From Methylomonas sp. ZR1 (GTDB lineage: Bacteria; Pseudomonadota; Gammaproteobacteria; Methylococcales; Methylomonadaceae): a DNA stretch of 59,597 bases. Both the position numbers and the translations under genes were made by a program. The stretch spans positions 1 through 59,597 of the forward strand of contig NZ_RCST01000002.1 in the NCBI RefSeq assembly GCF_013141865.1, given 5' to 3'. The first letter of the stretch is position 1, and each line of letters begins with the position of its first letter. Shown piece after piece: positions 21,716-59,597 of this stretch. The notes under the pieces are model-generated. The model worked only from the letters and a program-made list of their open reading frames with translations, did no database searches and was not told the DNA's origin.

Positions 21716-21749
21716 CACACTAATATTTAGTAGAATGGAGTTCAACAAC

Positions 21750-22310
21750 ATGCAAAAAATGGTAGTTATATCTAGCGCAGTCTTCATGGCCGCGTGCTCA
21801 TCGTTGCCGGTACCGCCAGTTGTTGACGGTACCGACAGACATCCAATAAACAGCCGAGAGACAACCGAACTATTAGCGCTTCGCGCTCAATTGGCCCAAA
21901 CACAGGAACTACTACAATTACGTGAACAAAACATAATACCGCCCGTGGCAATCCATCCAGCGCCAGTGCAGACATCGCTAATCACGTCGCAAACGGTCAG
22001 TGTGCAATTTCCATTCAACGGTACGAAGTTTAACCCAACAACAGACCAAACCGGGGCGCTTCTTCCATTATTGACCAACGCTAAACGTATCGTAGTGCGA
22101 GGCAGAACAGACGGCCAACACGCGAGCGCCGCTGATGAACAAGTCGCACTGAACCGCGCACTGTCGGCACAACGATACTTAGTGAATAACGGAATATCGC
22201 CTTTGATTATTTCGATAAATTATTTATCAGCTGGCGATTATGTAGCCGACAACAATTCAGCGGCCGGCCGCGCTCAAAATCGCCGCGTTGATATTGATGT
22301 TTTCAATTAA
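21750..22310 (+). CDS. OmpA-like lipoprotein of the transfer region
   Basis: This 186-residue protein starts with a lipoprotein signal (AACS lipobox near residue 16). It continues with VVDGTDRHPINSRE, a helical segment, and a C-terminal OmpA/MotB peptidoglycan-binding domain (RTDGQHASAADEQVALNRAL; SAAGRAQNRRVDIDV). The start at 21750 follows GGAG. The DGTxRxPIN segment is shared with the VirB7-like protein at 13103, so it may be a VirB7 relative fused to an OmpA domain that anchors the outer-membrane core to the wall. It closes the transfer region and has its own operator. The HNH gene converges on it, 8 bp away. Confidence 0.85.
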   Translation: MQKMVVISSAVFMAACSSLPVPPVVDGTDRHPINSRETTELLALRAQLAQTQELLQLREQNIIPPVAIHPAPVQTSLITSQTVSVQFPFNGTKFNPTTDQTGALLPLLTNAKRIVVRGRTDGQHASAADEQVALNRALSAQRYLVNNGISPLIISINYLSAGDYVADNNSAAGRAQNRRVDIDVFN

Positions 22311-22317
22311 TTCGAGA

Positions 22318-23190
22318 CTAGCAGGTGACCGATCCAGATGGGCTTGATCCGGTTATTTTTGCAATGATTGCAGCCAATGCATCTGGTTCTAAAGGTGGGT
22401 CAGTGCGATGTACAGTGGCATGGCAATTGGCACACAGAGGTACAAGGTCACGAACAGGGTCAACAATATAGTTGCCCCCCATTTTTGAAACGGGTATGCG
22501 ATGGTGTACCTCTATATACCCCTGTCCGAGCGATCCGTAGAAGACACCAAAATCAAAGCCACAGATATAGCAGGCCGACCCATGAGCCGCAATACATGCA
22601 GCTCTATTTACGGGACTTCTCTCGTACCTGTTTACAGTTACTTTTGTACAAGCGCCTTCGGGTAAGCCGCTCTCATACAGGGGTATGGCAACAGTATCGT
22701 CTTCTTCTAATGGCAGTAGTGTCAACACTAAGGCAAGACACGCCGTTGCTATTTCTTCCGTGCATACCTGTAACGTGGCCTCATCCCCATTCGTAACGTC
22801 TGTAAGCTTCCGGACATTCAGCTGGAATTTACTCCAAGGGGCTGGAGGCAAATCCGATAATGTCGATATGACAGAACCATTAATGCGTAACACAATGCGG
22901 TTACCCATTGTGTTGAACGCCTCAGCCAAAGAGCAGAAAGTTTGCCTAGCATGCGGCAATGATTCTCCCATTGCCCTGACAAGTTCACCGGCATAGGTAT
23001 CAGGTACAAAATCTGCTTCTATGCTTTTCCAGCCGGGCGTAACCAGAATCATGAAGCCGTTGGGTGACGGTATATCTGTAGCGCGTACACCACAGCTCAG
23101 ATTATCTTTAGTAGAGACTGAACATCCGGTTAGGTCCAAGCGAAATCTGGCGGAAAGTGTCTCGGCAAGTTTAATTTCGTTCAAGGCCAA
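22318..23190 (-). CDS. HNH endonuclease of the restriction island
   Basis: This 290-residue protein has a C-terminal HNH domain. Paired cysteines (CYICGF and CANCH) surround the HH pair in YIEVHHRIPVSKMGG and the final HATVHR, the ββα-metal nuclease arrangement. The N-terminal about 180 residues are unfamiliar and may be a recognition or modified-base-sensing domain. It is the last gene of the minus-strand operon that starts with the SNF2 helicase. GAGAAGG precedes the start and the ATPase gene ends 19 bp upstream. It is the likely nuclease of that arm. Confidence 0.88.
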   Translation of the reverse strand: MALNEIKLAETLSARFRLDLTGCSVSTKDNLSCGVRATDIPSPNGFMILVTPGWKSIEADFVPDTYAGELVRAMGESLPHARQTFCSLAEAFNTMGNRIVLRINGSVISTLSDLPPAPWSKFQLNVRKLTDVTNGDEATLQVCTEEIATACLALVLTLLPLEEDDTVAIPLYESGLPEGACTKVTVNRYERSPVNRAACIAAHGSACYICGFDFGVFYGSLGQGYIEVHHRIPVSKMGGNYIVDPVRDLVPLCANCHATVHRTDPPLEPDALAAIIAKITGSSPSGSVTC

Positions 23191-23209
23191 TTTCTATACA
23201 ACCTTCTCA

Positions 23210-24823
23210 TTATGCATCAGCTTCAGGGGGTTCAGGTAAATCTTCTACCAAACGCCGAAGGATACGGGATACCTCATAACGCATTTCTTCAAAATTTCGT
23301 TTGTTACTTTCGCTGACATTACCGAGTTCGGCCGCACAGAGTCCCCAAATGAGAGAATCCAAGCCTTGAACAATCACGCCGGACTTTTGGTTTGGGATAT
23401 AGACTTTATGGTAGTAGGGATGTCCTGTGTTAATACGTACCGCTTGGTTGCCATCAATAAATGCCGGTTCCCACAATACACCATCTTGCAGACTGTCTAC
23501 TGGTTGTACATGACATTCCCCGCTATTTTTCTGTTCTACCAGTTTGATTTTTAGCTTTGTAATGCCATTCTTGTTTGTAATCGTTACATTACCTGTCGAA
23601 CCGTCAACTTCTGTAACTTCAGCGGTTTTGAGGTTGTCGGCCTGGGAGTGTATAGCATTATTTGATACCGCGTGGATCAATGCGGCAGTTCCTGTTACAG
23701 TTGCCGCAATGCCTTTACGATAACGCTCCTGGCCTTCGCGTCGTGGTCCTTGGAGGAACTTTTGCATCCAGTCATAAAGAGAATCATCCAGCAAAATTCT
23801 GGATTTTTTTATATCTACCTGGAAAGCGTCATCAAGCTTATAATCGAACGATAGTTCAATTCGGCATAGAGATGTATGCGGTTCCTTAATGTACATTTCG
23901 AGCCAATCAGGGCCATGAATTAGCCGGTTCTCCCTATACACATACAGCCCCTGCATGTTGTTTGTAAGCCGTGCGTCCTTAGCGACTTGCTGGTCAGAAA
24001 ACTCGTCTTTTCTGGGAAGGATAAAAGCTCGGACTTTAAACTCTGCATGATCATCTTCCCCTATTTCAACTTTCATAACCTTTTCGGCTATTGGGGCTTT
24101 GGTTTCTGATACACAATATGGGTCCCACGGAAGAACTGGCTCTCCGTTGATGCGAATATTCACATCAGATGCACGCCTGTCGTTCTTGTCAAGAAATCGC
24201 TGATAGACCATCGATATGTGAAACCGAAGATCATCTTCGTATCGCTTGAGTGCTTTCCTTGCCGCCTTTCCATCAGGTGTAGCATATGCTTTAAGCAGCC
24301 GATCTACTTTTTCCCAGAGAATTACTGTACCAGTCTTTCCTTTGGCTATACTGTCAAGCAGTTCGGTTTCATTTCCCGTTGCTTCCCCTAGTTGAAGTGC
24401 CCAGCGCTCCACTGATGCAATATGATCGAGATCCCATGTTGCCTTGAGTACTTCGCCTCCGGCTTGTCCCCGGCTAATTGCAGAAAGACGACGACAGAAG
24501 GCTGTTGAAGCAGTCTTAAGCCCAAGTCCAAATTTTCCAAGACTGGATTGATCCGTGCGCCGTCTCGAACCATAACGCATCGCATTGATCAATCCATCCT
24601 TATCCATGCCACAACCATCGTCTGTCACGGAAACGAATATATTCCCACGAAAGTCCATAGTTATAGCGACTTCGATATTGTTTGCCTTGGCGGCGATGGA
24701 GTTATCAATAACATCAGCCATCGATGTATTGAATTCATAACCGGTGTCGCGCAACCCTTCTATTATTCGTTCGGGGTCAGGCGGTACCTCAAGATATGAG
24801 GAATCTAAATTATTATTTATCAT
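23210..24823 (-). CDS. GHKL ATPase of the paraMORC / MutL-like type (537 aa)
   Basis: The N-terminal domain has the GHKL (gyrase, Hsp90, histidine kinase, MutL) ATP-binding motifs: MADVIDNSIAAKA (motif N1), VTDDGCGMD (N2, DxGxG) and SSLGKFGLGLKTAST (N3). The downstream region fits an S5-like transducer with a helical C-terminus. Iyer, Abhiman and Aravind described such paraMORC proteins in prokaryotic restriction-modification islands with SF2 helicases and nucleases. Here it sits between a free-standing EcoRII-N protein and an HNH nuclease in one operon. Probable role: an ATP-driven clamp or DNA-remodelling component; the activity is inferred. Confidence 0.88.
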   Translation of the reverse strand: MINNNLDSSYLEVPPDPERIIEGLRDTGYEFNTSMADVIDNSIAAKANNIEVAITMDFRGNIFVSVTDDGCGMDKDGLINAMRYGSRRRTDQSSLGKFGLGLKTASTAFCRRLSAISRGQAGGEVLKATWDLDHIASVERWALQLGEATGNETELLDSIAKGKTGTVILWEKVDRLLKAYATPDGKAARKALKRYEDDLRFHISMVYQRFLDKNDRRASDVNIRINGEPVLPWDPYCVSETKAPIAEKVMKVEIGEDDHAEFKVRAFILPRKDEFSDQQVAKDARLTNNMQGLYVYRENRLIHGPDWLEMYIKEPHTSLCRIELSFDYKLDDAFQVDIKKSRILLDDSLYDWMQKFLQGPRREGQERYRKGIAATVTGTAALIHAVSNNAIHSQADNLKTAEVTEVDGSTGNVTITNKNGITKLKIKLVEQKNSGECHVQPVDSLQDGVLWEPAFIDGNQAVRINTGHPYYHKVYIPNQKSGVIVQGLDSLIWGLCAAELGNVSESNKRNFEEMRYEVSRILRRLVEDLPEPPEADA

Positions 24824-24836
24824 TAAATATACTCAT

Positions 24837-25262
24837 CTAAATTTTGATCACTTTCCATCCCCCGGAAAGGATCAGAACATCATCTTGTGTCGCGGGCGGA
24901 AGACCGGTTCGATTTAATTCTATAGTAAGTCGTCCTTCCATATCTTTGAATAAGGAAACAATATCTCCAGCTCTTGCATTACGGGCTTTTAAATACTTGG
25001 TCATGCAGGTTAATCGGTATTCATTTCTGGTACCACCGAAAAACCGATTATTGTAATAGATGAAATTAAAATCCCAACGGGTTATGCCATCTGTTTCCCG
25101 AAAAACCAATGTAACACGAGGATTTTTTTCTTTTGGATTAAGATGAGGAAAGAACGACAGTATTTCCCTTTCCTTTGGAACGAGAATTCCGGCTTGGTGA
25201 GCGCCGGTTTCTCCAATATCGTTCGCACTAAGTACCTTTGTTATTTGCGCAATATATGTCAT
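24837..25262 (-). CDS. Free-standing EcoRII-N-like DNA-recognition domain (141 aa)
   Basis: The sequence follows the N-terminal effector domain of EcoRII closely: ITKVLSANDIGETGAHQAG, then NPRVTLVF, then a core IYYNNRFFGGTRNEYRLT. In EcoRII this pseudobarrel binds a second copy of the target site and controls the catalytic domain. Here it is a separate protein with no nuclease motif. It overlaps the SNF2 gene by 4 bp (ATGA) and is 13 bp before the ATPase gene. It probably supplies sequence specificity to the helicase-ATPase-HNH arm. The typical EcoRII catalytic half is encoded by 29000-30232. Confidence 0.9.
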   Translation of the reverse strand: MTYIAQITKVLSANDIGETGAHQAGILVPKEREILSFFPHLNPKEKNPRVTLVFRETDGITRWDFNFIYYNNRFFGGTRNEYRLTCMTKYLKARNARAGDIVSLFKDMEGRLTIELNRTGLPPATQDDVLILSGGWKVIKI

Positions 25263-27181
25263 TCAAGTCCTACAATACCTGATAAGGGGGAAACGGTAAG
25301 CGCTCGCATGACATCATTCGCGGTCGCATCGCCCTGGTGACCGGTTGCAGCGTGTTCTGCCAAACTGCGTTTGAGACCAAGACGCTCAACAATAACCTCT
25401 TCAACACTATCCACAAAATAAAGCTGATGGATAGTAACGGGCCTTTGCTGTTTTCTACGATATGCCCTTGCGGAAGCTTGGTCTTCCAATGCAGGATTCC
25501 ATTCTGGGTTGTAATGAATTACATGATTTGCTGATGTAATATTCAAGCCAACACCTGCGGCCCTAGGGTTTAAAATAAGTACTCCACCGCATGACGAGGC
25601 GCTAAAGTCATCAACTATTATTTGGCGGTTTGCAACCGCAACCCTTCCGTCAATAAAATTGAAATACTGTTCCTTGAAGCGCATTGGCAAATCTTGAAGA
25701 AAAATATCCGTCATTCCATTATAACTTGTGAAAATCAGGCATTTTTCATTCTGGGAAAAGATTTCCTCAAGCAACTCAATGAGGCGCTGATATTTTGGCA
25801 TATGAACTGCCGGATCAGGCGAGTCATAGCCAGCCAGTCTAGGATGAGAGCAAAACATTCTTAGTCGTTGCAAGGCGACAAGTGCTGCTGATTTTCCATA
25901 TTCGTTTATGGCCGAGAGCCGCACCTGTTCATACAGTTCGGCCATAGATTTCGACATTCCTATTGGTTGTGGTATGTCTATTCTTTCTGGAAGGTCTTTT
26001 GCTACCTCTTTGACCCGTCGCCGAAGCAGTATCGGTGCAACCAGTGGGGCTAGCTGGGATGCATCTGAAGCAGTGTTTTCGAAAAGACTTTCAAAATCAC
26101 CACGCTCCCCTAATAACCCCGGAAGGGAAAAGTCAGATAGAGACCATAGGTCTGTAAGCTTATTTTCAACTGGAGTACCTGTCACTGCCAAGGATACCCT
26201 TCTGGGTAATCTCTTAACCGCAATGGTTCTCTGGGCATCAGGGTTCTTGATGTTTTGAGCCTCATCAAGCGCCAAAAGATTCCAGCGAATTGACGAGAGC
26301 ATTGGCTCATCCCTGACAGCAATATCATAGGATGTGACTACAACATCAAATCCTGCCAGTCTGGAAATAATACCCGCACGATTAGGACCCGCATGTATGC
26401 TTATTGAAAGCGATGGAGCAAACTGGGTGAGTTCCCGTCGCCAGTTTTCAAGTAATGTTGCAGGGGCAACCACCAATGACGGTAATCGCCCCGCCGAATG
26501 CTCTGCCAACATCAGCGCAATGACTTGGACTGTTTTTCCAAGGCCCATCTCATCACCAAGGATGCAACCAAGGCCTTGATTGGCAATCAGGCAAAGGAAG
26601 TGGACACCGTCCTTCTGATAACCATAGAGTTCAGCGTTAAGCCCCCATTGATTAGCATTGAGGGTTGGTGGTGCTTGAATTTCGGCGGGAGTGCCACTTT
26701 CAAGGTTATCAATCAGCTCGATACCTATGTTTACATGGGTCTTGAGCCAGATCAGCTGACCAACCGTGATTGGTTGACCAAGTAAAATGTTTTGTTTCCT
26801 CAGTAGGGTGAATACGTCTTCATAATCAGATAAGGCAAGGGGGTACCATGTTTTACCGATAAACAGTTGGTCAGTGTTTGGACCTATAATTGCATATTCA
26901 CTACCGATTTTACCAATCAGATCGAGCCGAATAGTATCTGGTGATTTTCCGGTTAGCAATAATCCGGGTTCAGCCGGAAATCTCGAAAATGTGTATTCCG
27001 ATAAAACCACATCCGGGGTACATGAAAACCTACTGCCATTGCCATAAAGGGAATCCCAGATTTCCTCTGCCGTTGGTTTTATCGGAATACCATCTTCCTG
27101 GACATATTCCAGATGATCATCCGCTATTTTCCAGGTCGTCGGGCAGCGCTCAATAGCGTTATTTACATGATTTATAGTCAT
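25259..27181 (-). CDS. SNF2-family helicase/translocase (640 aa)
   Basis: This SF2 ATPase of the SWI2/SNF2 group has motif I DEMGLGKTVQ at about residues 208-217, motif II LALDEAQNIKN, motif III AVTGTPVENKL, and C-terminal motifs including GVLILNPRAAGVGLNITSA and a Q-x-x-R-A-Y-R box. Such enzymes translocate on double-stranded DNA without unwinding. It is the first gene of the four-gene minus-strand arm and may move the complex along foreign DNA. The start at 27181 faces the methyltransferase gene across an 84-bp divergent promoter region. Confidence 0.93.
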   Translation of the reverse strand: MTINHVNNAIERCPTTWKIADDHLEYVQEDGIPIKPTAEEIWDSLYGNGSRFSCTPDVVLSEYTFSRFPAEPGLLLTGKSPDTIRLDLIGKIGSEYAIIGPNTDQLFIGKTWYPLALSDYEDVFTLLRKQNILLGQPITVGQLIWLKTHVNIGIELIDNLESGTPAEIQAPPTLNANQWGLNAELYGYQKDGVHFLCLIANQGLGCILGDEMGLGKTVQVIALMLAEHSAGRLPSLVVAPATLLENWRRELTQFAPSLSISIHAGPNRAGIISRLAGFDVVVTSYDIAVRDEPMLSSIRWNLLALDEAQNIKNPDAQRTIAVKRLPRRVSLAVTGTPVENKLTDLWSLSDFSLPGLLGERGDFESLFENTASDASQLAPLVAPILLRRRVKEVAKDLPERIDIPQPIGMSKSMAELYEQVRLSAINEYGKSAALVALQRLRMFCSHPRLAGYDSPDPAVHMPKYQRLIELLEEIFSQNEKCLIFTSYNGMTDIFLQDLPMRFKEQYFNFIDGRVAVANRQIIVDDFSASSCGGVLILNPRAAGVGLNITSANHVIHYNPEWNPALEDQASARAYRRKQQRPVTIHQLYFVDSVEEVIVERLGLKRSLAEHAATGHQGDATANDVMRALTVSPLSGIVGLE

Positions 27182-27265
27182 CGTCCAGTTTTATAAACTA
27201 TATTCTTCGTTATTATCGCTTGAAATTCTAAAAATACCTAGAAAAAGGGACTTAATTAGGTCATA
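27182..27265. promoter_or_regulatory. Divergent promoter region of the restriction island
   Basis: These 84 AT-rich bases carry promoters for both arms. An inverted pair ACCTA (about 27234) and TAGGT (about 27257) flanks the rightward start region. The adjacent methyltransferase has an N-terminal helix-turn-helix, and related enzymes (M.EcoRII, M.SsoII) bind their own promoters, so this is the likely control point. No operator is proven. Confidence 0.5.
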
Positions 27266-28552
27266 ATGTCCGCAAAAATACCCAGCGACGATATTATGAC
27301 TCAGACTCCCCCGCTCGAACTCTTGAAGCAGGCCCGCAACCGATATACCCAGCGCGAAATTGCCGAGTATGTAGGTAAGGACTCCAAGACTGTGCGACGC
27401 TGGGAAAAGGGAGAAACGCCTTGCCCAACCATGCTGGAACCGGCCTTGCGTGATTTGCTGCAATCCCCTTCTCATGTAAGCGGCGACCATCGCTTTCGCT
27501 TTATTGATCTTTTCGCTGGTATAGGGGGTATCCGTATGGGCTTTGAAGCCCACGGAGGAAAATGTGTATTCACCAGTGAATGGAATGACTTCTCAAAGAA
27601 AACCTATATTGAAAACTACGGCGATCACCATCCTTTTGTCGGCGACATAGTTCCGTACCCTGCTGAAGAAGTTCCTGATCATGACGTATTGCTCGGAGGG
27701 TTTCCTTGTCAGCCTTTCAGTATCGCTGGTGTGAGTAAAAAGAATTCCCTTGGTCGTCCACATGGATTCGAATGTACTACCCAAGGAACGCTGTTTTTCG
27801 ATGTTGCCCGTATTATTGCAACTAAACGGCCAAAGGCATTCTTGCTGGAAAACGTAAAGAACCTGCTTTCACACGATAAAGGCAATACATTTGACGTGAT
27901 CCTGCAAACCTTACGGGATGAATTAAAATACGATGTTCACTACAAGGTCATTGATGGGCAGCACTTTACCCCCCAACATCGTGAGCGGATAATCATCGTC
28001 GGTTTCCGCGAGAAAACTGATTTTTCATGGAATGACTTGCAACTGCCGGAAGAAAGTCCGCGACTCTCTTCAATATTACACAAGACGGATGGCACTGAAC
28101 CCGTATTACCGTGGGATGGGGACCGTTTTTTCGATCACGGCAAACAAGCAGTGCTATCCAAATACACCTTGACGCCAAATTTGTGGACTTACCTGCAATC
28201 CTACGCGGAAAAGCATCGGGCCGCCGGCAATGGCTTTGGCTTTGGGATGGCATATCCAGATAGCGTAACACGTACCCTGTCGGCCAGATATTATAAGGAC
28301 GGTTCGGAAATACTGGTATGGCAAGGTAAAAACAAGCGGCCGCGTCGCCTGACACCTCGTGAATGTGCTCGATTAATGGGTTTTCCGGATACATTCCAAA
28401 TACCTGTAAGTGATACACAGGCTTACCGCCAGTTCGGCAATAGTGTCATCATGCCAGTGATGAAGGAAGTTGCCCGTATCATGGCTCCGCGCGTTCAGGC
28501 GTTGATCGAACAGGAATGTACTGGCATTGCTCAGCAACCACTATTTGCTTGA
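27266..28552 (+). CDS. dcm: Dcm-like C5-cytosine methyltransferase with HTH extension
   Basis: This 428-residue enzyme carries motif [13 protein letters not shown] (about residue 80), catalytic motif [11 protein letters not shown] (about 145-153), motif [10 protein letters not shown], motif [14 protein letters not shown] and motif X GNSV. The N-terminal about 60 residues hold a helix-turn-helix ([20 protein letters not shown]). The order of motifs and the neighbouring Vsr and EcoRII-like genes suggest CCWGG-type modification, C5 on the inner cytosine, but the target is inferred. The HTH may repress its own gene. A start at 27296 is possible but has a poorer ribosome site. Confidence 0.93.
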
Positions 28553-28556
28553 TCCA

Positions 28557-29003
28557 GTGACTGACATAGTAGACGCCTCAACACGGAGCCGTATGATGTC
28601 TGGTATCCGGGCAAAGAATACCAAACCGGAAATTCTAATCCGCAGTCTGTTACACCGGAATGGGTTCCGGTTCCGTCTTCATGTTAACAATTTGCCGGGC
28701 AAACCTGATATTGTGCTGACGCGTTACCATGCCGTGATATTTGTACATGGATGTTTCTGGCATGGGCACGAGTGTCCTTTGTTCAAATGGCCTGGTACTC
28801 GTCCAGACTTTTGGCGAGAGAAAATCGGACGAAACCGTACAAACGATCACAAGGCAAGGGAAGCTTTACTTGTTGCCGGATGGAGGGTTGGCATAGTTTG
28901 GGAGTGTGCTTTACGTGGCGCAGGCAAAAACATTGATAGTGTTGCGCAGAGATTGTCAGAATGGCTTCGTAATAATGCCCAATTGCTTGAGGTTGTTGGG
29001 TGA
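28557..29003 (+). CDS. vsr: Very short patch repair endonuclease Vsr
   Basis: This 148-residue protein matches Vsr: TRSRMMSGIRAKNTKPEI, LPGKPDIVL, VIFVHGCFWHGHECPLFKWP and WRVGIVWECAL align in order. Vsr nicks T:G mismatches that arise when methylated cytosine deaminates, and so protects methylated sites from mutation. The GTG start at 28557 restores the normal N-terminus before TRSRMM; a TTG at 28527 would overlap the methyltransferase. The stop overlaps the GTG start of the endonuclease (GTGA), suggesting coupled translation. Confidence 0.92.
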   Translation: MTDIVDASTRSRMMSGIRAKNTKPEILIRSLLHRNGFRFRLHVNNLPGKPDIVLTRYHAVIFVHGCFWHGHECPLFKWPGTRPDFWREKIGRNRTNDHKAREALLVAGWRVGIVWECALRGAGKNIDSVAQRLSEWLRNNAQLLEVVG

Positions 29004-30232
29004 AGCCTGGGTATTTATCCGAGTATTTTGAGGGTGTTGCCGCAAAACGATTGAGTGCGGTTGAGGCCGATGAAACACGCTCAAACCAGCACGAATACCA
29101 TGCCACCAAAAAAGTTCAGGCATTTCTTGGCAGTCCTGAAGAAAAGACTAGAATGCCCGCGCGTTTTCTTTACCTCACCGATGATGATCCTGATCCTATT
29201 GTCGAGGATGCTTTCCTCACTCTCTACAATTGCCGTAAGGGCAAGCCACGTGCGCCGGAATACCATCTCTATTTTCCAACCACGAATGTCTCGTTAAATG
29301 CCAGCGAAGGCGATTTGCTTGTTATTGCTAAAAGGCGTGACGCTGGCCTACTGATCATTATCGCCGAAAATGGATCGAGCATTGCGCGGCAGATTGAATG
29401 GCTGTTTGGTTTTGGCGATTTGGCCCATCCCGGTTTTTCAGTCAAATCCGAGCTTGAAACTGAACAGGATCGTATCGAATTCGCGTCGAGATTTATTCTG
29501 GAAAATATCGGTATTGCGGTTGAAACATCGGAAGATACCTTTCTCGATGACATGCTGACTCGTTTTACTGGCTGCTTTCCGACTACTCGCGATTTCTCAG
29601 CCTATGCGCGTTCGACCCTCAAAGACCTTGATCCACGGGAAAATCCAGATATGGTGCTAATGGCATGGATGGAGCGTGAGGAAATTCTGTTCCGTACACT
29701 TGAACGCTACCTCATTGCGGATCGCCTCTCAGAAGGGTTTGCTGATGAGGCAAGTACAGGTGCCGATGTGGACGGCTTCCTGTCATTTTCCTTGTCGGTA
29801 CAGAACCGCCGCAAGAGCCGTGTCGGCCTTGCGTTGGAAAATCATCTTGAATTATTGTTTATAGAAAATGGTTTGCGCTTCACTCGTGCCGCTATTACAG
29901 AAAACAAGTCCAAGCCAGATTTTTTGTTCCCTGGAGTGGAGGAATATCATAATCCGACTTATGATTCATTGATGCTAACCATGCTTGGCGTAAAATCTAC
30001 CTGCAAAGACCGGTGGCGGCAAGTGCTCAGTGAGGCTGATCGGATCGAAAATAAGCACCTGCTGACGTTGGAAACAGCAATATCCACGCATCAGACAGAT
30101 GAAATGGCAGCGAAACAACTACAACTTGTTTTGCCACGAGGGCTCCATTCGACCTATACGCCTGCACAGCAAACCTGGCTAATGGATGTGGATGCATTCA
30201 CACGGCTAGCACATGAGCGTCAGGTCGTTTAG
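29000..30232 (+). CDS. Type II restriction endonuclease, EcoRII-C family
   Basis: This 410-residue protein has an N-terminal domain of its own kind (YFEGVAAKRLSAVEADETR) and a C-terminal catalytic domain close to EcoRII: VQNRRKSRVGLALENHLE, then the PD-(D/E)xK core KPDFLFPG and MLGVKSTCKDRWRQVL, then QLVLPRGLHSTY. It should cut unmethylated sites recognised by the Dcm-like enzyme. The N-terminus is not the EcoRII-N domain, which is encoded separately at 24837-25262. The GTG start overlaps the vsr stop. Its methyltransferase partner is two genes upstream in the same operon. Confidence 0.9.
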   Translation: MKPGYLSEYFEGVAAKRLSAVEADETRSNQHEYHATKKVQAFLGSPEEKTRMPARFLYLTDDDPDPIVEDAFLTLYNCRKGKPRAPEYHLYFPTTNVSLNASEGDLLVIAKRRDAGLLIIIAENGSSIARQIEWLFGFGDLAHPGFSVKSELETEQDRIEFASRFILENIGIAVETSEDTFLDDMLTRFTGCFPTTRDFSAYARSTLKDLDPRENPDMVLMAWMEREEILFRTLERYLIADRLSEGFADEASTGADVDGFLSFSLSVQNRRKSRVGLALENHLELLFIENGLRFTRAAITENKSKPDFLFPGVEEYHNPTYDSLMLTMLGVKSTCKDRWRQVLSEADRIENKHLLTLETAISTHQTDEMAAKQLQLVLPRGLHSTYTPAQQTWLMDVDAFTRLAHERQVV

Positions 30233-30895: not shown

Positions 30896-31351
30896 TTATA
30901 AAATTCCAGCTTCCGCGAAACTATAAGCACTGCGGCAAGTGACAATCAAGTGATCCAAAACCCGGACATCAATCAGTTTTAAAGCATCGATCAGGCGGGT
31001 AGTAATTCGGCGATCCGCATCGGAAGGCTCCGCCAGACTCGACGGGTGGTTGTGAAAGAAAATGCAGGCGGCCGCATTAACGGAAAGAACTTCTTTCACT
31101 ACCTCGCGTGGGTAAACACTTGCGCCATCGATAGTGCCACGGAACAAGGTAATCGACTCAATCAATTGATGCTGGTTATCCAGCAACAACACGCCGAAAA
31201 CTTCATGTTCAAGGTGTGCGGCTTGCAACCGGCAAAATTGCTTAACGCTTTCCGGTGATGTAGCAAATAAATCTTGTTTCTTATATAAGCCAGACAGGAT
31301 TTCAACGGCGGAATTGATAGTAGCTTGTTGATCGGCGGTCAATGTGTTCAT
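30896..31351 (-). CDS. radC: RadC-like JAB-domain protein (151 aa)
   Basis: This protein has the JAMM/JAB core of plasmid RadC proteins: EHEVFGVLLLDNQHQLI, FRGTIDGASVYPREVVK, and the metal-binding signature FFHNHPSSLAEPSDAD. It lacks the N-terminal helix-hairpin-helix region of chromosomal RadC and is about 70 residues shorter, as usual for plasmid versions, which are often encoded with anti-restriction genes. Function unproven. GAGAGG precedes the start, and palindromic promoter copy B lies immediately upstream. Confidence 0.92.
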   Translation of the reverse strand: MNTLTADQQATINSAVEILSGLYKKQDLFATSPESVKQFCRLQAAHLEHEVFGVLLLDNQHQLIESITLFRGTIDGASVYPREVVKEVLSVNAAACIFFHNHPSSLAEPSDADRRITTRLIDALKLIDVRVLDHLIVTCRSAYSFAEAGIL

Positions 31352-31369
31352 TCGGTAAACCTCTCAAAA

Positions 31370-31434
31370 ATGGCCTTGGCGGAAGTGCCCGGCCTGATTG
31401 TTATCATACGCCCCAATGGGGCGTATGTCAACCA
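31370..31434 (-). promoter_or_regulatory. Shared palindromic promoter, copy B (drives radC)
   Basis: Minus-strand TTGACA (31431-31426), a 17-bp spacer and TATGAT (31408-31403). The 21-bp palindrome spans 31406-31426 with arms identical to copy A. The transcribed leader GGCCGGGCACTTCCGCC is conserved as well. Confidence 0.85.
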
Positions 31435-31475
31435 CTAATTACCTTTATTTACCGATTATTGTTCGCCTTTGATGG

Positions 31476-31658
31476 CTAGTATACGTCTGCTTCCTCGCCA
31501 CAGTTCTCGCAGCCATATTCCCACGGATCAGCACCGTCTTGGCCGCATGTATTGCACACCCAAGTTGAGTCCTCCCGCCCAACTGCAACACGGCTAAAAC
31601 GACCTGTTTTCGAGTCTTCCAGCCATTCGTTTTCGGATAGATCATTATTAGCTGTCAT
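31476..31658 (-). CDS. Small zinc-ribbon protein (60 aa)
   Basis: This 60-residue acidic protein contains two CxxC knuckles, WVCNTCGQDG and YGCENCGEEA, spaced as in a rubredoxin-like zinc ribbon. No family name is certain. It starts at 31658 after AAGG with 7-base spacing, 14 bp downstream of the 36-codon gene at 31673-31783, both behind promoter copy C. Small zinc ribbons of this kind are frequent next to plasmid anti-restriction genes, but the role here is unknown. Confidence 0.75.
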   Translation of the reverse strand: MTANNDLSENEWLEDSKTGRFSRVAVGREDSTWVCNTCGQDGADPWEYGCENCGEEADVY

Positions 31659-31672
31659 TTGGATACCTTGGG

Positions 31673-31783
31673 TTAAGCGTCGCGTTTGCTTTGTGCATCA
31701 ACGATCTTTCTGACCATTTGACGGGCATTCAATTGGCGGGTTCTGGCGGTCTCGATTGTTCTGATTTTTATAACGGTTTTCAT
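31673..31783 (-). CDS. Basic 36-residue protein
   Basis: This short frame starts at 31783 with a good ribosome site (GGAG, 6 bases upstream) and encodes a basic helical peptide (MKTVIKIRTIETARTRQLNA, ending DAQSKRDA). It lies directly behind palindromic promoter copy C and 14 bp before the zinc-ribbon gene. I cannot name it. The signal position and the spacing argue that it is real. Confidence 0.6.
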   Translation of the reverse strand: MKTVIKIRTIETARTRQLNARQMVRKIVDAQSKRDA

Positions 31784-31798
31784 CGGCTTCTCCGGAAA

Positions 31799-31863
31799 AA
31801 TGGCCTTGGCGGAAGTGCCCGGCCTGATTCTGACTATACGCCCCATTGGGGCGTATAGTCAAG
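31799..31863 (-). promoter_or_regulatory. Shared palindromic promoter, copy C
   Basis: Minus-strand TTGACT (31862-31857) with TATAGT (31838-31833) at 18-bp spacing. The palindrome is at 31836-31856 with the same arms as the other copies. It drives the 36-residue and zinc-ribbon genes. Confidence 0.82.
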
Positions 31864-31892
31864 AACTTTCTAACGCTCAACCAAAGATAAAG

Positions 31893-31908
31893 CAAGACAA
31901 TTTCAGCG
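31893..31908 (+). repeat. Solitary replication iteron outside the origin
   Basis: CAAGACAATTTCAGCG is identical to the iterons at 39344-39459. It lies between promoter copy C and the 292-bp repeat, more than 7 kb from the origin. Confidence 0.85.
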
Positions 31909-31918
31909 CCAAAAATGA

Positions 31919-32210
31919 TTTGTGCAATCGGGATTAAGGGTTCAGGGAAGCGGGGAATCAAAATAAAGCGCGGCATCGCCGCACCTTATCTAATCTTAAC
32001 GGGGCATACTCCAGCGGTTGGAGTGAATCGGTCTTAATGGGACGAGGGCTTGCGGTGCGTACCGGTTGACAGGGAGGCCGGCGCGGTCAAGGGGTCGTGG
32101 AATAAAAAGAGAGCGAAGCGAACGGCTTTATGCCGCGAAAGCCCCTTGACCGAATAAGCCGGGCTTTCTGTCAATATCGGCGCACAGTAAGCAAGCCTCT
32201 CCCATTAAGA
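31919..32210. repeat. 292-bp duplicated element, copy 2
   Basis: This is the identical copy of 2998-3289, with the same nested stem. Downstream flanks differ: CATCTG follows copy 1 and AAAATGGTGACA follows copy 2. It lies upstream of promoter copy C on the minus strand, as copy 1 lies upstream of copy A. Confidence 0.9.
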
Positions 32211-32266
32211 AAAATGGTGACATATCAGTCTCGCCGGCGACTTTAGCTTGCCACCAACAGGCAAGA

Positions 32267-33892
32267 CTAGGCCGCCAGTTGGCTAGGTCTTGTATTGCTT
32301 AATGCAAAGAACGTATCAACGTCGAGGCCGGCATCCTCACAGGCTTTAGTATGGGCCGCCTCGATCTGTTCATCAGACGGATGGCCCCAACGTACCGTAG
32401 GCAATACCATTGCAGTTGTGATAGTTTCAGCCTTCTCGTAATGCTCCCAAAACGCCGTTGGTGCTACATTGTCATCGTTAGGCAACCATTGACGTTGACG
32501 GCCAACCATACGGTTAAGGCGGTCAATAATTTCACGATTTCGAGGGTAAAAATGAACCGTTCCCGCTTGCCGATACCAACGGACATCAAAATAATCGGTT
32601 GTCATTCGTTGGCTGCGTTTTAAATCATCGGGCATGCTATGAAAAAGTTCATACAAACCATAATGGCATTGCTGCTTACCGTCCAACATCGCAAAGACTT
32701 TATCAAAATCTTCCAATTTCTTAAGATCGTCCCAGCTCGGGCCTAATCCATAACTGTTCCGAACCGGAATAATAAACCGCGTCATTTTGACGCGATAAGC
32801 CAGCTCTCTATGTTTCTCGTTCGATTTCCAGCCTTTATAGTAAGCGCGGTTATCGGGCCGGTATTTGGTTATTTCATCGAAACAGTCCAGCAACATTTGC
32901 ATGTTCATATCGCCTTGACTATTGACCAGGCCAATCAAAAAACCCCTTACATTAGATTCTGTAAACGATAGCTTAGCGATCTGTTCGAAGTCGGTTACAA
33001 GACGTTGATAGGCCTTTGACGATAGATATTTATTGAATTCCGTGGAATGTAATACGTTCGTCCATGCCCGCTTTTTAAGATCGTCATAGCCTTTATTAAA
33101 TCGCTCTTGGATAGCAATAACTTCGCCGTCTTGCGTGGTTTTATGCAGCTCATTCAATGGCCGCCCCAACAAACGCGCGTAGTAATCGGCCTCTTCCCTG
33201 GCGACTTCGGCGGATTTCAACGCCTTAACAGCAGCATTAAAGACTGACACGGCATTACTGATCGTGTTCTGTCTCAGGGCGATACTGTTTTTCTCGGTGT
33301 AATCGATTGCCGATACATGTTCGACTTCTAGGCCATGAGTAAAATTCTGCTTTATATCGACCTTCTTTTGCAACCATATTAAGGCGACATCAGCGGCGGT
33401 TTTACGCATAGTGTCAGGATCAAGAAAAGCCTCTGAAAGAAATTCGACTGAGCCGTGCTCTTCGATCCAGTTACAGATGAGTTTTCGTTTGGCGGTGTGT
33501 GGGTTGCGAATTGTTTCGGCATTTAGAATGGCAACCAGTTCACCATCGACTAATAAATCAAAGGCTTTAACAAGATGGTCGGCACCATCCTTCCACGGCG
33601 GGTTCATCAAAATATGGGTGTACATCCCTGCCCCACTAAAAGCTAAAAAGTCGGTATCGACCACATTAACACCCTTGCTGCGTAAGACGGCTTGATTGTC
33701 TAAATCAAGTTCAATGCAGTCAATTTTATCAGCGCCATGAGACGAATAACGGCGGCCCCATTTGTCGAGCAATGGAGCGAGCAAATCGCCACGTCCGGCG
33801 CTTGGCTCCAACACCCTCAAGAAATTATGAGACTTAAATTTTGCGAACGCCTTTTCGGCTAAAGAGAGTGGCGTAGGGTAAAACTGAATCAT
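32267..33892 (-). CDS. Adenine-type DNA methyltransferase with DUF4942 (541 aa)
   Basis: The N-terminal half is an N6-adenine methyltransferase: motif I RVLEPSAGRGDLLAPL and catalytic motif IV ILMNPPWKDG. The C-terminal half (FIIPVRNSYGLGPSWDDLKK, then YFDVRWYRQAGTVHFYPRN) matches DUF4942, the usual partner domain in plasmid-borne enzymes. No cognate nuclease is adjacent, so it is an orphan that may protect the plasmid from host restriction on entry. The start at 33892 has AGGAG 7 bases upstream; the frame to 33970 reads through its promoter. It is driven by palindromic promoter copy D. Confidence 0.9.
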   Translation of the reverse strand: MIQFYPTPLSLAEKAFAKFKSHNFLRVLEPSAGRGDLLAPLLDKWGRRYSSHGADKIDCIELDLDNQAVLRSKGVNVVDTDFLAFSGAGMYTHILMNPPWKDGADHLVKAFDLLVDGELVAILNAETIRNPHTAKRKLICNWIEEHGSVEFLSEAFLDPDTMRKTAADVALIWLQKKVDIKQNFTHGLEVEHVSAIDYTEKNSIALRQNTISNAVSVFNAAVKALKSAEVAREEADYYARLLGRPLNELHKTTQDGEVIAIQERFNKGYDDLKKRAWTNVLHSTEFNKYLSSKAYQRLVTDFEQIAKLSFTESNVRGFLIGLVNSQGDMNMQMLLDCFDEITKYRPDNRAYYKGWKSNEKHRELAYRVKMTRFIIPVRNSYGLGPSWDDLKKLEDFDKVFAMLDGKQQCHYGLYELFHSMPDDLKRSQRMTTDYFDVRWYRQAGTVHFYPRNREIIDRLNRMVGRQRQWLPNDDNVAPTAFWEHYEKAETITTAMVLPTVRWGHPSDEQIEAAHTKACEDAGLDVDTFFALSNTRPSQLAA

Positions 33893-33906
33893 CGGATGGC
33901 TCCTGA

Positions 33907-33972
33907 AAATCGGCCTTGGCGGAATGCCCGGCCTGATTGCTACAATACGCCCCATTGGGGCGTATGTCAAGC
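33907..33972 (-). promoter_or_regulatory. Shared palindromic promoter, copy D (drives methyltransferase)
   Basis: Minus-strand TTGACA (33970-33965), a 17-bp spacer and TATTGT (33947-33942). The palindrome is at 33945-33965. The conserved leader lacks one base relative to copies A-C (GGCATTCC against GGCAATTCC). Confidence 0.85.
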
Positions 33973-44693: not shown

Positions 44694-44826
44694 CGCTGCG
44701 TCCCGATGCTTCCTGATGCGCTAGTTTCGCCGCCGCTGCGGCCGATGCGAGTGCCTGCTACCACGGCTTAAATGACCCGCTTTAGGGGTTCTTTGTCCAA
44801 TTCGTCGCCCAGTAGTGCCTGGAGCA

Positions 44827-45144
44827 TTATCTCCCCGGCACCTTATCGGCGATGACGGTTGGCTCGCTTTCGAGTGCGGTCTGAACCTGTTGTGGGATTT
44901 CATGATTGGGCAAAATGCTGTTCCCCTGATTCGTTTGTTGCAACAGGCAGTCGATTTCCGCTTCTGCTTCGCGCCAGTCTTCCGCCATGTCGCCGCCAGC
45001 AAAGCCGTGCTTTTCGGCGCGGTAATAGGCGGCTTCAGCGATCATTCGATAGCGCTCCTCTGGTGTTACGAGCGGACGATTCGGTTGCTCGGCAACGGCT
45101 TGAGCCGTCTTTTTAGAGGCGGCAGTAGATTTTGATTTGGTCAT
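44827..45144 (-). CDS. DUF2934 protein (105 aa)
   Basis: The central region (RYRMIAEAAYYRAEKHGFAG and DMAEDWREAEAEIDCLL) matches DUF2934, a short helical domain of unknown function. The N-terminus is Lys-, Ser- and Ala-rich. AGGAG precedes the start at 45144. It lies between GST and thioesterase genes on the same strand. The function cannot be inferred. Confidence 0.82.
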   Translation of the reverse strand: MTKSKSTAASKKTAQAVAEQPNRPLVTPEERYRMIAEAAYYRAEKHGFAGGDMAEDWREAEAEIDCLLQQTNQGNSILPNHEIPQQVQTALESEPTVIADKVPGR

Positions 45145-45238
45145 GGGGTGTACTCCTATTTAATCAGTGGTTTTGCGCGCGCTGGCGTTGGTTATCTTGC
45201 CCTTGCCGACGGCCCCCGCCAGCAGGGTGTGATAATAG

Positions 45239-45847
45239 TTATTCAATCAGTCCTTCGGCCTTGAGCGCCGCCTGCACCGCAGGACGTGCGGCGACGCGGC
45301 CCTGATAGGCGACCAGCACTGGCCATGGGGCAAGATCGACACCGACGTAATTGCCCCAGCCCAGTACGGTGAAAAGATAGGCATCAGCCACAGTAAAATT
45401 GTCGCCCATTAGCCAGCGTTTGCCATCGAGCCGGGTACTGACATGATCGAAACGCCGGGCCAGTTGCGCCTTGACGAGGTCTTTCCAGGCTTCCGGCGCC
45501 TGTGGATTGAACAGCGCGCCGAAGCTCTTGTGCAGCTCGGTAGAGATGAAGTTGAGCCATTCCATCAGGCGGTAACGCTCGATACTGCCAAGCGGCGGCA
45601 CCAGCTCTGTTTCCGGCACATGGTCCGCGAGATACTGGATAATGGCCGGACCTTCGGTCAACACTTGACCGTCATCGAGCAGCAGGGCGGGTACGTAACC
45701 ATTGGGATTGATCGTGCGGTAATCGACGCCGGTTTCTGTTTTACCGCTGGCTAGGTCGACCTGCTCGGTTTCATAGTGGAATCCACCCTCTTCGAGAACG
45801 ATGTGGGGCGATAACGAACAAGCGCCGGGGCTGTAATAAAGTTTCAT
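45239..45847 (-). CDS. gst: Glutathione S-transferase (beta class, GstA-like, 202 aa)
   Basis: The thioredoxin-like N-terminal domain (KLYYSPGACSLSPHIVLEEG; NPNGYVPALLLDDGQVLTEG) has the Cys10 typical of beta-class enzymes. The helical C-terminal domain has LMGDNFTVADAYLFTVLGW. It conjugates glutathione to electrophilic compounds, so it may detoxify the compounds the adjoining pumps export. GAGGAG precedes the start. It is the third gene leftward of emrA-emrB, 149 bp from emrB. Confidence 0.92.
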   Translation of the reverse strand: MKLYYSPGACSLSPHIVLEEGGFHYETEQVDLASGKTETGVDYRTINPNGYVPALLLDDGQVLTEGPAIIQYLADHVPETELVPPLGSIERYRLMEWLNFISTELHKSFGALFNPQAPEAWKDLVKAQLARRFDHVSTRLDGKRWLMGDNFTVADAYLFTVLGWGNYVGVDLAPWPVLVAYQGRVAARPAVQAALKAEGLIE

Positions 45848-45996
45848 AGTGTGGTCTCCTCAGGCTAGAAAAATGGGTAGTAGGTATCAGTCGTGCTCAC
45901 CACCGCAGGTGATGCAGGCGAGACGGCAGGTTGAGCGCTGTAAATCTATTGATCCATAGGTTACTCCGCAGGAAATTAACAAGAAGCTTCATTCGG

Positions 45997-47604
45997 TCAA
46001 TGGCCGCCCGCCGCGCCACCGGCATCCGCCGATACTTTTCTGACCAATGGCATCAGCAATAAGGCCAGGAAAAAAACCAGGCTGAGGATATGAAACAGCG
46101 TATTGAGGGTAATCACCTCGGCTTCTCGCATCACCAGGCCGTAAAGCTGCTTGAGTGCGGCCAGTTCGCTGTCCGATAACGACAAGCCGGCCATGCGTTC
46201 CTGCAAGCCCGCCAGTAGCGATTGCGCTTGTGGAGACCCCGGCGCCACCGATTCACGCAACACGGCATAATGCTCCTTGTTCAATTGAATCATTAGCGTG
46301 TTAGAGACGGCAAGGCCGATGGCACCACCCAGGTTGCGCATCAGATTGTAAAGTCCGCTGGCATTTTTGACTTCTTCCGGCGGCAAAGTGCCCAAGGCCA
46401 GCGAATTGATGGGCAGAAAGGCAAACATCAGGGCAAAGCCACGCAAGGCCTGCGGCCAAAAAAACTCCCAGTAGCCTGACTCATTAGTGAGATCGCCGTT
46501 CATCCAGGCACCCAGCCCATAGAGAGACAAGCCCATCGCCATCATCAGCCGTGAATCCAATACTTTGGCGAGGGGGCCAGCGACGAAGGCCGACAGCAGC
46601 TGAAACAGTCCTGTGACCATCACATATTGGCCAATCTGCAGGCTATTAAGACCTTTGACGCTGGCCAGATACACCGGCATCAAATAAACGGTGGTGTACA
46701 TACCGATGCCGAGGATGAAGCTGAACACACAGCCCACGGCGAAGTTGAGATTGCGGAATGCCCAGAGATCGACAATAGGGTGTTCGATGGTCAGTTCGCG
46801 ATAGAACATGGCGATGCCGGCGATGGCGGCAACCACGCTAAAAAACACGATCTCGCGGCTATCAAACCATTCCTTCCGCACCCCTTCTTCCAGCACAAAT
46901 TGCATACTGCCGAGAAAGACGATGATGTAGACGATGCCGAGAAAATCGATTTTTTCGAGCAATTTCCAGTCCGGTTCATCCACCCGCACGAACAGCCAAG
47001 TGCTCAGACAGACCAAAAATCCTGGTAACAGATTGATCAGAAACAGCGCTTTCCAAGAAAATGCTTCGGTAAGATAGCCGCCCAGCACCGGTCCCGCCGT
47101 GGGTGCGATGGTCACCACCAGGCCGACGACGATGAACATGGACGGTTGAAGACGGGGCGGAAACATCGTGTAGATCACCGCAAACACGGTGGGAATCATA
47201 GCGCCGCCAAACAAGCCTTGGAGGGCGCGAAAAACGATCATCGAGGGCAGATTCCAGGATAAGGCAACAAACAGGCTCATCAGCGTAAAGCCGCCGCAAG
47301 ACAGCACGAACAGGTAACGGGTCGACAGCGCCCGGCTCAGCCAGCCGGATAGGGGGATAATCACCACTTCGGCGATCAGGTAGGCGGTTTGCACCCAGGC
47401 AATCTCGTCTTTTGTAGCCGCCAATCCTGCCTGGATCTGTTGCATCGAACTGGCGACGATCTGGATGTCCAGAATCGCCATGAAAATGCCGAACACCATG
47501 CCGAAAAAACCGAACCATTGTTGCGGGGTGAGCGGTTTTTCAGCCGCACCGCCATGACTCTCCGGCACGTCTTCGGCGGCTATAGTCTCTGTGGTCTTGA
47601 TCAT
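45997..47604 (-). CDS. emrB: EmrB-like MFS drug exporter, DHA2 family (535 aa)
   Basis: This protein has 14 membrane segments, with the DHA2 motifs (QTAYLIAEVVIIPLSGWLSR; GAMIPTVFAVIYTMFPPRL; PTAGPVLGGYLTEAFSW). It should use the proton gradient to expel hydrophobic drugs, together with the EmrA adaptor and an outer-membrane factor. The gene lies 6 bp downstream of emrA. The outer-membrane partner is presumably the OMF at 49319-50725, across the tetR gene. Confidence 0.93.
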   Translation of the reverse strand: MIKTTETIAAEDVPESHGGAAEKPLTPQQWFGFFGMVFGIFMAILDIQIVASSMQQIQAGLAATKDEIAWVQTAYLIAEVVIIPLSGWLSRALSTRYLFVLSCGGFTLMSLFVALSWNLPSMIVFRALQGLFGGAMIPTVFAVIYTMFPPRLQPSMFIVVGLVVTIAPTAGPVLGGYLTEAFSWKALFLINLLPGFLVCLSTWLFVRVDEPDWKLLEKIDFLGIVYIIVFLGSMQFVLEEGVRKEWFDSREIVFFSVVAAIAGIAMFYRELTIEHPIVDLWAFRNLNFAVGCVFSFILGIGMYTTVYLMPVYLASVKGLNSLQIGQYVMVTGLFQLLSAFVAGPLAKVLDSRLMMAMGLSLYGLGAWMNGDLTNESGYWEFFWPQALRGFALMFAFLPINSLALGTLPPEEVKNASGLYNLMRNLGGAIGLAVSNTLMIQLNKEHYAVLRESVAPGSPQAQSLLAGLQERMAGLSLSDSELAALKQLYGLVMREAEVITLNTLFHILSLVFFLALLLMPLVRKVSADAGGAAGGH

Positions 47605-47610
47605 GTTGCG

Positions 47611-48636: not shown

Positions 48637-48652
48637 AAATTTTTATTGCCTA

Positions 48653-48677
48653 ACTAAACGGTGTAGTTTAGTATAAT
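48653..48677. promoter_or_regulatory. TetR-type operator and promoter between emrA and tetR
   Basis: ACTAAAC (48653-48659) and GTTTAGT (48666-48672) form a 7-bp inverted repeat with a 6-bp spacer. TATAAT (48672-48677) overlaps its end, so a bound TetR protein would block at least the rightward promoter. Confidence 0.7.
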
Positions 48678-48720
48678 CACTGACCCCGCTTTGATGCAAC
48701 GAAATTATTCAATCCTTAAG

Positions 48721-50725: not shown

Positions 50726-50748
50726 CTGCAAATGTTCCAGGAGAAGTG

Positions 50749-54569: not shown

Positions 54570-54571
54570 TC

Positions 54572-55696: not shown

Positions 55697-55809
55697 TTAG
55701 GTCTTGAGCACGCCATGAAAAACGTACCCAACAACCTTAACCATCGCAAGTTCTTCAGCTTGAAGAATAATAGGAGTGAGATAAGTTGCAGCTCATGGCC
55801 GTTGTCAGC

Positions 55810-55930
55810 CTGTCGTAAAACACATGTTTTCCGACAGCTTGCTACCGATCTAAAATTTGCCTATCGAACAAGCCCTAAAAATATGCGATAAACCCTGTCG
55901 GAATGCGATACCATACGGAAACTAAATTTG
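55810..55930. promoter_or_regulatory. res: Transposon resolution site (res)
   Basis: Subsite I is a 28-bp interrupted palindrome at 55810-55837: left arm CTGTCGTAAAACA, right arm TGTTTTCCGACAG, one mismatch, with CA at the centre, which is the layout of Tn3-type crossover sites. Repeats of CTGTCGGAA and ATGCGATA at 55880-55915 are probably the accessory subsites. The tnpR promoter must lie in the same region. Confidence 0.75.
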
Positions 55931-55945
55931 ATAGGTTTTTCGTCT

Positions 55946-59565: not shown

Positions 59566-59597
59566 CAAAATTTTCGGCGGTTCCGGCTTACAACCCC
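59560..59597 (-). repeat. Tn3-family right inverted repeat (IR-R), window end
   Basis: The same repeat as 56-93, seen a second time because of the assembly overlap. The window ends at its outermost base. Confidence 0.95.

Follow-up and report, generated by a model that had tools for sequence, protein, structure and literature searches.

Here we describe a seven-gene restriction island at positions 22318 to 30232 of a 59,597-nt stretch of DNA from Methylomonas sp. ZR1 (the window, positions 1 to 59597 of one of the two contigs of this 5.18-Mb genome). Four minus-strand genes, for an SNF2-family ATPase, a stand-alone EcoRII-N protein, a MORC-type GHKL ATPase, and an HNH endonuclease (the minus arm), stand opposite three plus-strand genes, for a Dcm-type C5-cytosine methylase, a Vsr endonuclease, and an EcoRII-like endonuclease (the plus arm). 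Judged from sequence comparison, the island probably holds two restriction effectors that share one methylase, with the minus arm being a separate ATP-dependent complex that has EcoRII-N as its specificity subunit. We also propose, with about as much doubt as confidence, a class of ATP-dependent restriction enzymes whose reader can be traded, in which a MORC-SNF2-HNH engine would be combined with either EcoRII-N (a B3 domain, for CCWGG) or an unrelated reader of ~270 amino acids (aa) (for CCNGG). Each reader would be swapped with a matching C5-methylase, in an HsdS-like manner but with reader and methylase as separate genes. Comparison of loci shows the gene content, the conserved order, the constant linkage to a methylase, and that the two specificity genes exclude each other and vary together with the target domain of the methylase.

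Neighborhoods of the minus arm

Using an alignment of the GHKL protein, we scanned GTDB genomes and found 136 relatives, the best 80 of which make up a census that is anchored on GHKL similarity. By record title, these 80 loci come from 12 bacterial phyla and one archaeon; many are contigs of metagenome-assembled genomes, so organism labels are used as in the record titles, and some loci are copies (L046/L093 and L082/L094). Profiles of all seven proteins were run on all frames of each locus. Full context, meaning at least 6 kb on both sides, was available for 49 of the 80 loci, and 31 were short on one side. A C5-methylase (>200 bits, anywhere in the locus) and SNF2 were each present in 49 of the 49 full-context loci, HNH in 48, a stand-alone EcoRII-N in 39, and Vsr in 36. 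An EcoRII-C match was found in 18 of the 49, with short pieces counted, and the N and C domains were in one frame in 8; it was absent from 31, and from 21 of the 38 complete arms in full context. Gene order within the arm is conserved: among 94 SNF2+GHKL loci from all sources, HNH occurs in 90 and lies directly after GHKL in 90 of these 90, and EcoRII-N occurs in 77 and lies directly after SNF2 in 75 of them.

On a GHKL tree of 86 rows, from which GHKL matches covering less than 80% of the profile and loci without SNF2 or a methylase were left out, at least 14 changes are needed for the presence of EcoRII-C and at least 22 for the relative orientation of methylase and SNF2. All seven genes point in the same direction in Marinobacter pMAD49a, the two arms are convergent on Rhizobium and Agrobacterium plasmids, and the stretch lacks EcoRII-C on Fuscovulum and Pseudomonas putida plasmids. 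The plus arm was found without the minus arm on three plasmids examined (one also without Vsr and one with Vsr in two pieces); the 55 plasmid records with a match to the GHKL protein include none of these three. Thus, the minus arm and methylase form a stable unit and EcoRII-C is a recurrent companion. A first-pass annotation of the same DNA had tied the minus arm to the C5-methylase, a link that it held would fail if the arm occurred mostly apart from such methylases; the arm was never found apart from one in full context. It had also cast the minus arm as a second line for DNA that escapes the plus arm. This role is unsupported, because all 49 loci hold a C5-methylase and only 18 an EcoRII-C match, and because of the tree changes and the three plasmids with the plus arm alone. 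From its neighborhoods, the minus arm seems to be a self-standing restriction unit rather than a backup for EcoRII.

These counts also bear on whether the two arms form one machine, with the free EcoRII-N as an extra effector for the EcoRII-like nuclease and with SNF2, MORC, and HNH as accessories. According to the available part of PMC4081073, EcoRII belongs to type IIE and is activated by way of its N domain, and the co-directional genes of pMAD49a would suit such an assembly. However, more than half of the complete arms lack EcoRII-C, the EcoRII-like enzyme already has a B3-like domain of its own, and there are plus arms with no minus arm beside them, so a single machine seems rather improbable.

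The minus arm is rare in any single genome set, since EcoRII-N matches occur in 13 of 397 genomes sampled from the same phylum and only one other stand-alone EcoRII-N (L127, with SNF2 adjoining) was found among them besides that of the window; the rest were 8 EcoRII-like enzymes with both domains (404 to 435 aa) and 3 weaker matches in frames of 331 to 476 aa. GHKL matches were present in 12 of 200 further genomes from the family to which the window belongs, none above 184 bits, and one of these (L139/L151) has broken SNF2 and GHKL pieces. Among 30 viral contigs found with the GHKL query, 7 (L090 to L096) carry the whole MORC-SNF2-EcoRII-N-HNH arm and a methylase, which suggests spread by phages or prophages; the GHKL proteins of L093 and L094 are identical to those of genome loci L046 and L082, respectively.

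The predicted specificity gene and the methylase target domain

The stand-alone EcoRII-N (B3) protein (24837 to 25262, minus strand, 141 aa; Pfam EcoRII-N, 74.5 bits) is the predicted site-recognition subunit of the minus arm. It aligns with the N domain of EcoRII (PDB 3hqf, E = 2.3e-11) across both conserved stretches, K-LSAND-G-TG-HQ-G and IYYN---FG-TRNE-R-T, and the residues K9, L11, N14, D15, H22, Q23, G25, Y70, N71, R79, E81, R83, T85, and T88 are invariant in 49 aligned sequences. Both stretches are reported to contact CCWGG in EcoRII (Golovenko et al., 2009). In EcoRII, EcoRII-N is the CCWGG effector-binding domain (PMC4081073, available part). A search with EcoRII-N returned 2,188 proteins at E ≤0.001. 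In seven loci (L030, L033, L043, L044, L047, L054, and L075), a stand-alone EcoRII-N occurs together with a full EcoRII, and the N part of this EcoRII also matches the EcoRII-N profile.

Other arms carry an unnamed protein of ~270 aa (~376 aa in four), which was directly upstream of SNF2 in 15 of the 15 loci scored for it. Examples are L051:7287-8123, L060:7206-8048, L056:6923-8050, and their relatives, all from arms with CCNGG-type methylases. Nothing came near a Pfam cutoff for seven members of this family or an NCBIfam cutoff for three, profile comparison found no similarity to EcoRII-N, and there was no convincing match among solved structures. The family has 304 database relatives; among the best 120, a Pfam domain is present in one, and what few source names there are read "hypothetical protein."

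For the methylase comparison, we dropped the 10 of the 94 SNF2+GHKL loci that had no aligned methylase covering 70% of the profile. In the remaining 84 loci, the two specificity genes are mutually exclusive, with EcoRII-N in 68, the ~270-aa gene in 14, both in 0, and neither in 2. The CCWGG references were E. coli Dcm (L120) and a Klebsiella methylase whose neighboring gene is annotated EcoRII (L121); the CCNGG reference was the methylase on a 4.2-kb Shigella sonnei plasmid (L154), which also encodes an endonuclease with a 305-residue match to R.Ecl18kI (E = 3.6e-203). The available part of PMC4081073 gives CCWGG as the EcoRII site and CCNGG as the Ecl18kI/SsoII site. The methylase target domain was nearer to the CCNGG reference in 14 of 14 ~270-aa loci, by 18 to 33 points, and nearer to the CCWGG references in 62 of 68 EcoRII-N loci. 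EcoRII-C proteins longer than 250 aa were present in 25 of 77 EcoRII-N loci, in 0 of 15 ~270-aa loci (Fisher P = 0.009 between these two groups, relatedness ignored), and in 0 of 2 loci with neither gene. Because EcoRII-N is exchanged when the methylase target domain changes, as a specificity subunit should be, these comparisons support the view that it is a separable specificity subunit for the site that the methylase itself recognizes.

This co-variation also bears on the possibility that the arms are independent neighbors, gathered in a defense island and reading unrelated sites. Both modules are found apart, and the many changes in relative orientation of methylase and SNF2 on the GHKL tree point the same way. 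However, not one of the 49 full-context loci lacks the C5-methylase, the window methylase has no second match anywhere in its genome, and the specificity gene follows the methylase class; independent neighbors are therefore very unlikely.

Proteins of the two arms

All seven open reading frames (ORFs) of the island are open, and they lie where the first-pass annotation had placed them, with the domains it had named; their best Pfam E-values run from 9.7e-6 (HNH) to 3.5e-81 (methylase). By Pfam, the B3 domain is a free protein, the nuclease is HNH, and the motor is SNF2. The SNF2-family motor (25259 to 27181, minus strand, 640 aa; SNF2-rel_dom, 187.2 bits; Helicase_C, 60 bits) scores below the equivalog cutoffs for Zorya ZorD (241 of 1500 bits) and DISARM DrmD (81.4 of 950 bits). 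The GHKL ATPase (23210 to 24823, minus strand, 537 aa; HATPase_c_3, 92.4 bits) had been labeled a paraMORC. In the available part of the 2008 paper of Iyer, Abhiman, and Aravind (PMC2292703), MORCs are united by the motif GhXhhpXXRhl, and paraMORCs are without it. The window protein has this motif in its S5 domain, as GLYVYRENRLI, so by the motif test it is a MORC and not one of paraMORC1 to -5. The motif is present in 99 of 100 GHKL frames above 300 bits (a count that takes in the window and two copies of it) and in 26 of 35 weaker frames, and the GHKL residues DNS, D-G-GM, and GK-GLGLKTAS are invariant in 6 of 6 compared sequences. The nearest named model, MzaB of the MZA anti-phage system, gives 201.8 bits in NCBIfam against a cutoff of 850.

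The HNH endonuclease subunit (22318 to 23190, minus strand, 290 aa with a TTG start as called; Pfam HNH, 26.1 bits) has its HNH domain at residues 207 to 262 and an N-terminal alpha/beta domain (model mean pLDDT, 89.1). The top solved-structure match of its profile is EcoKMcrA, which is specific for 5-methylcytosine (5mC) (E = 5.9e-11), and the PADLOC mREase_IV model also matches it (E = 1.7e-8). Both would fit a type IV-like minus arm, a methylation-dependent or backup effector on wrongly or foreign-methylated DNA in which the HNH protein reads 5mC. We consider this unlikely, since the two matches are confined to the HNH part (profile positions 173 to 267 and protein residues 177 to 263, respectively), and the N-terminal domain has a weak likeness to DUF1054 proteins and chaperone-like folds. 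In addition, a 5mC reader of the same site would presumably attack its own DNA, because the arm adjoins a C5-methylase in every full-context locus. The reader of the arm also resembles the N domain of EcoRII, an enzyme that acts on unmethylated sites.

In the plus arm, the ORF of the Dcm-type methylase opens at 27266, but the gene probably starts at 27296 (27296 to 28552, plus strand, 418 aa from this start; DNA_methylase, 273.6 bits). The annotated starts of relatives in L122 to L124 align with the ATG at 27296, so we take the called start at 27266 to overlap a -10-like box. With this start, the divergent intergenic region (27182 to 27295) has 114 bp between start codons, in place of the 84 bp given in the first-pass annotation. 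It contains a promoter- or operator-like block of the methylase gene (27258 to 27286, plus strand), with CATAAT at 27262 to 27267 followed by GTCCGCAAAAATACCCAG. This block has 2 mismatches in 29 positions to a shared 29-base block that was written down from these same loci and that other plasmids and chromosomes carry upstream of related Dcm-type methylase genes, in surrounding DNA that differs; 14 of 105 methylase upstream regions are within 9 mismatches of it, and 0 of 100 base shuffles of each region were as good. An 11-bp inverted repeat over the called start (27260 to 27270 and 27290 to 27300) was set aside for the 29-base block, which is common to relatives. The methylase has a weak N-terminal helix-turn-helix (HTH_3, 22.2 bits, below the cutoff of 23), through which autoregulation, as in M.EcoRII and M.SsoII, is plausible. 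It scores 305 bits with TIGR00675 (cutoff, 100.65) and 448.8 bits with PRK10458, under the cutoff of 710, and its target domain is 54% identical to that of E. coli Dcm (90 columns), 51% to the other CCWGG reference, and 45% to the Ecl18kI/SsoII-type CCNGG reference.

The Vsr mismatch endonuclease (28527 to 29003, plus strand, 158 aa; Pfam, 104.5 bits) passes the TIGR00632 cutoff (141.3 bits; cutoff, 97.85). The last protein of the island (29000 to 30232, plus strand, 410 aa) had been described as an EcoRII-C endonuclease, and the EcoRII-C domain stands (221.5 bits). However, the protein aligns with EcoRII from residue 194 on (PDB 3hqg, E = 5.9e-40), with KPDFLFP and KSTCKDRWRQ aligned, and a match to the profile of stand-alone EcoRII-N spans its residues 14 to 127 (E = 8.3e-5, probability 61). 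The structural model of this enzyme (mean pLDDT, 78.9; pTM, 0.55; domain arrangement unreliable) has Foldseek matches to EcoRII, Ecl18kI, and PspGI and then to plant and BfiI B3 domains. These alignments and fold matches make it a full-length EcoRII-like type II endonuclease, with a diverged B3-like N domain and an EcoRII-C catalytic domain, and not a bare C domain. The enzyme is predicted from homology to cleave CCWGG, and both arms are predicted by comparison to use this same site. The two-armed island was a sound observation, and the first-pass idea that its arms share one methylation state is strengthened.

Proposed mechanism, related systems, and plasmid setting

In the mechanism that we propose, the Dcm-type methylase would mark CCWGG, and the plus-arm enzyme would cleave unmethylated CCWGG with no need for ATP. 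In the minus arm, EcoRII-N would bind unmethylated CCWGG as the specificity subunit, the SNF2 motor would be loaded at the bound site and then travel along the DNA, the MORC ATPase would serve as a clamp that closes or an engine that loops the DNA, and cutting would fall to the HNH protein; Vsr would repair the T:G mismatches that arise from deaminated 5mC. DNA looping by MORCs was proposed in 2008 (PMC2292703, available part). ATP-dependent restriction of unmethylated CCWGG is the simplest reading of the minus arm because this arm combines the EcoRII-N effector domain, an SNF2 motor, a MORC clamp, and HNH as the sole recognized nuclease, and we infer the binding site, complex formation, translocation, cutting, and an anti-phage or anti-plasmid effect.

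Several points weigh against this scheme. In six of the 68 EcoRII-N loci, the target domain is nearer to the CCNGG reference by 1 to 5 points; a seventh is tied once rounded, and many others are less than 6 points apart. Independent swap events are few, as the GHKL tree requires no fewer than 3 changes of the EcoRII-N label and its well-supported branches force 1. Two SNF2-GHKL loci, L007 (in which the GHKL gene is in two frames) and L097, have neither specificity gene. The fold-search resemblance of the HNH-protein N-domain gives no clear functional match, and our search of the open-access literature found no biochemistry and no experiment on this composite. Finally, a free EcoRII-N could in principle act on EcoRII and not on the SNF2 complex, yet 52 of 77 EcoRII-N loci have no EcoRII-C protein. 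L007 and L097 have in common another unnamed protein downstream of GHKL (L007:10547-11317 and L097:6629-7549), a possible third variant.

A system of this kind was predicted in 2008. The SNF2-MORC neighborhoods in the available part of PMC2292703 include HNH or EcoRII-like nucleases, a VP1/RAV (B3) protein, a C5-methylase, and Vsr, and the same parts as in our island are all named there for the SWI2/SNF2 group. The first-pass claim that the composite had no experimental description agrees with our search of the open-access literature, but the composite itself had already been described computationally. Relative to the list of frequent neighbors in that part of the paper, we find one island that has them all, the pairs SNF2-EcoRII-N and MORC-HNH in fixed order, and another exchangeable family of specificity proteins that goes with the methylase class; the ~270-aa family may be among the X or Z domains of the neighborhoods described there. 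As far as the open-access literature that we searched goes, the exchangeable reader matched to the methylase is new.

CglI and NgoAVII combine a C5-methylase, a B3-PLD nuclease, and an SF2 ATPase and cut in an ATP-dependent manner (PMC4267653, available part), so B3 recognition, an SF2 ATPase, and a nuclease beside a C5-methylase can work as ATP-dependent restriction. The minus arm and its methylase are like CglI, NgoAVII, and BceSIV in having a C5-methylase, B3-type recognition, and an SF2 ATPase motor, and those systems perform ATP-dependent site-specific cutting (PMC4267653 and PMC5737866, available parts). The plus-arm enzyme shares the architecture of the type IIE enzyme EcoRII, including EcoRII-C, but has a diverged N domain, while the small minus-arm protein resembles the EcoRII N domain but is free, and its family seemingly serves a motor complex too. 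The methylase of Ecl18kI/SsoII-type small plasmids is the nearest reference for arms without EcoRII-N; the two such plasmids examined have a methylase and an endonuclease and no motor arm.

Bacterial MORCs were proposed in 2008 as engines of restriction complexes, and we found no test of this for the present group in the open-access literature. The island is small, is plasmid-borne, and has its own methylase, and the proposal makes a sharp prediction, that unmethylated CCWGG should be bound by EcoRII-N and CCNGG by the ~270-aa protein. If it is true, a reaction of four bacterial proteins could serve to study how MORCs act on DNA, a matter of relevance to the MORC chromatin proteins of eukaryotes, and it would also provide a motor-driven restriction enzyme whose readers can be swapped.

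Selection on CCWGG orientation by a tracking enzyme was considered and is not used as evidence. In positions 1 to 44700 of the window, CCAGG and CCTGG occur 7 and 51 times on the plus strand, the most skewed of 503 pentamer pairs, and regions of plus- and minus-strand genes are alike. In favor of such selection, the skew exceeds an absolute z of 2 in 4 of 7 arm-bearing viral contigs (L090, with 24:7, L091, L094, and L095) versus 6 of 57 genome loci. However, Thiomonas pXI1 (L153), with no arm annotated in the 39 kb analyzed, is skewed in the same direction (35:96), among 6 plasmid stretches with the arm and EcoRII-N only L004 passes an absolute z of 2, and some viral contigs without the arm (L100, L113, and L114) are as skewed. 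CCWGG is depleted in the window (96 observed, 131.6 expected), but the depletion is not specific, because GGWCC is depleted too (19 and 49.7).

The window has RepA, ParA/KorB partition, a MobA/VirD2-type relaxase, a VirB4-type secretion gene, and a topoisomerase, and by this gene content it is a conjugative-type plasmid. Part of its transfer region is ~78% identical to conjugative plasmids including pXI1 (19 to 27% of the query in the best 15 of 40 matches). The island starts 7 bp past an OmpA-family gene (21735 to 22310), with the relaxase gene beyond its other end; between the corresponding two genes of pXI1, there are just a TrbM-type gene and a hypothetical gene. The island had no megablast match in 72,556 plasmid records. 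On the relaxase side, it is adjoined by genes for a RadC-like JAB protein and a DUF4942 protein (30896 to 33970). The GC-rich segment from 44701 to 59597, with a Tn3-family transposase, a resolvase, MFS and ABC/HlyD/OEP efflux genes, and a glutathione S-transferase, is apparently a later insertion into the plasmid.

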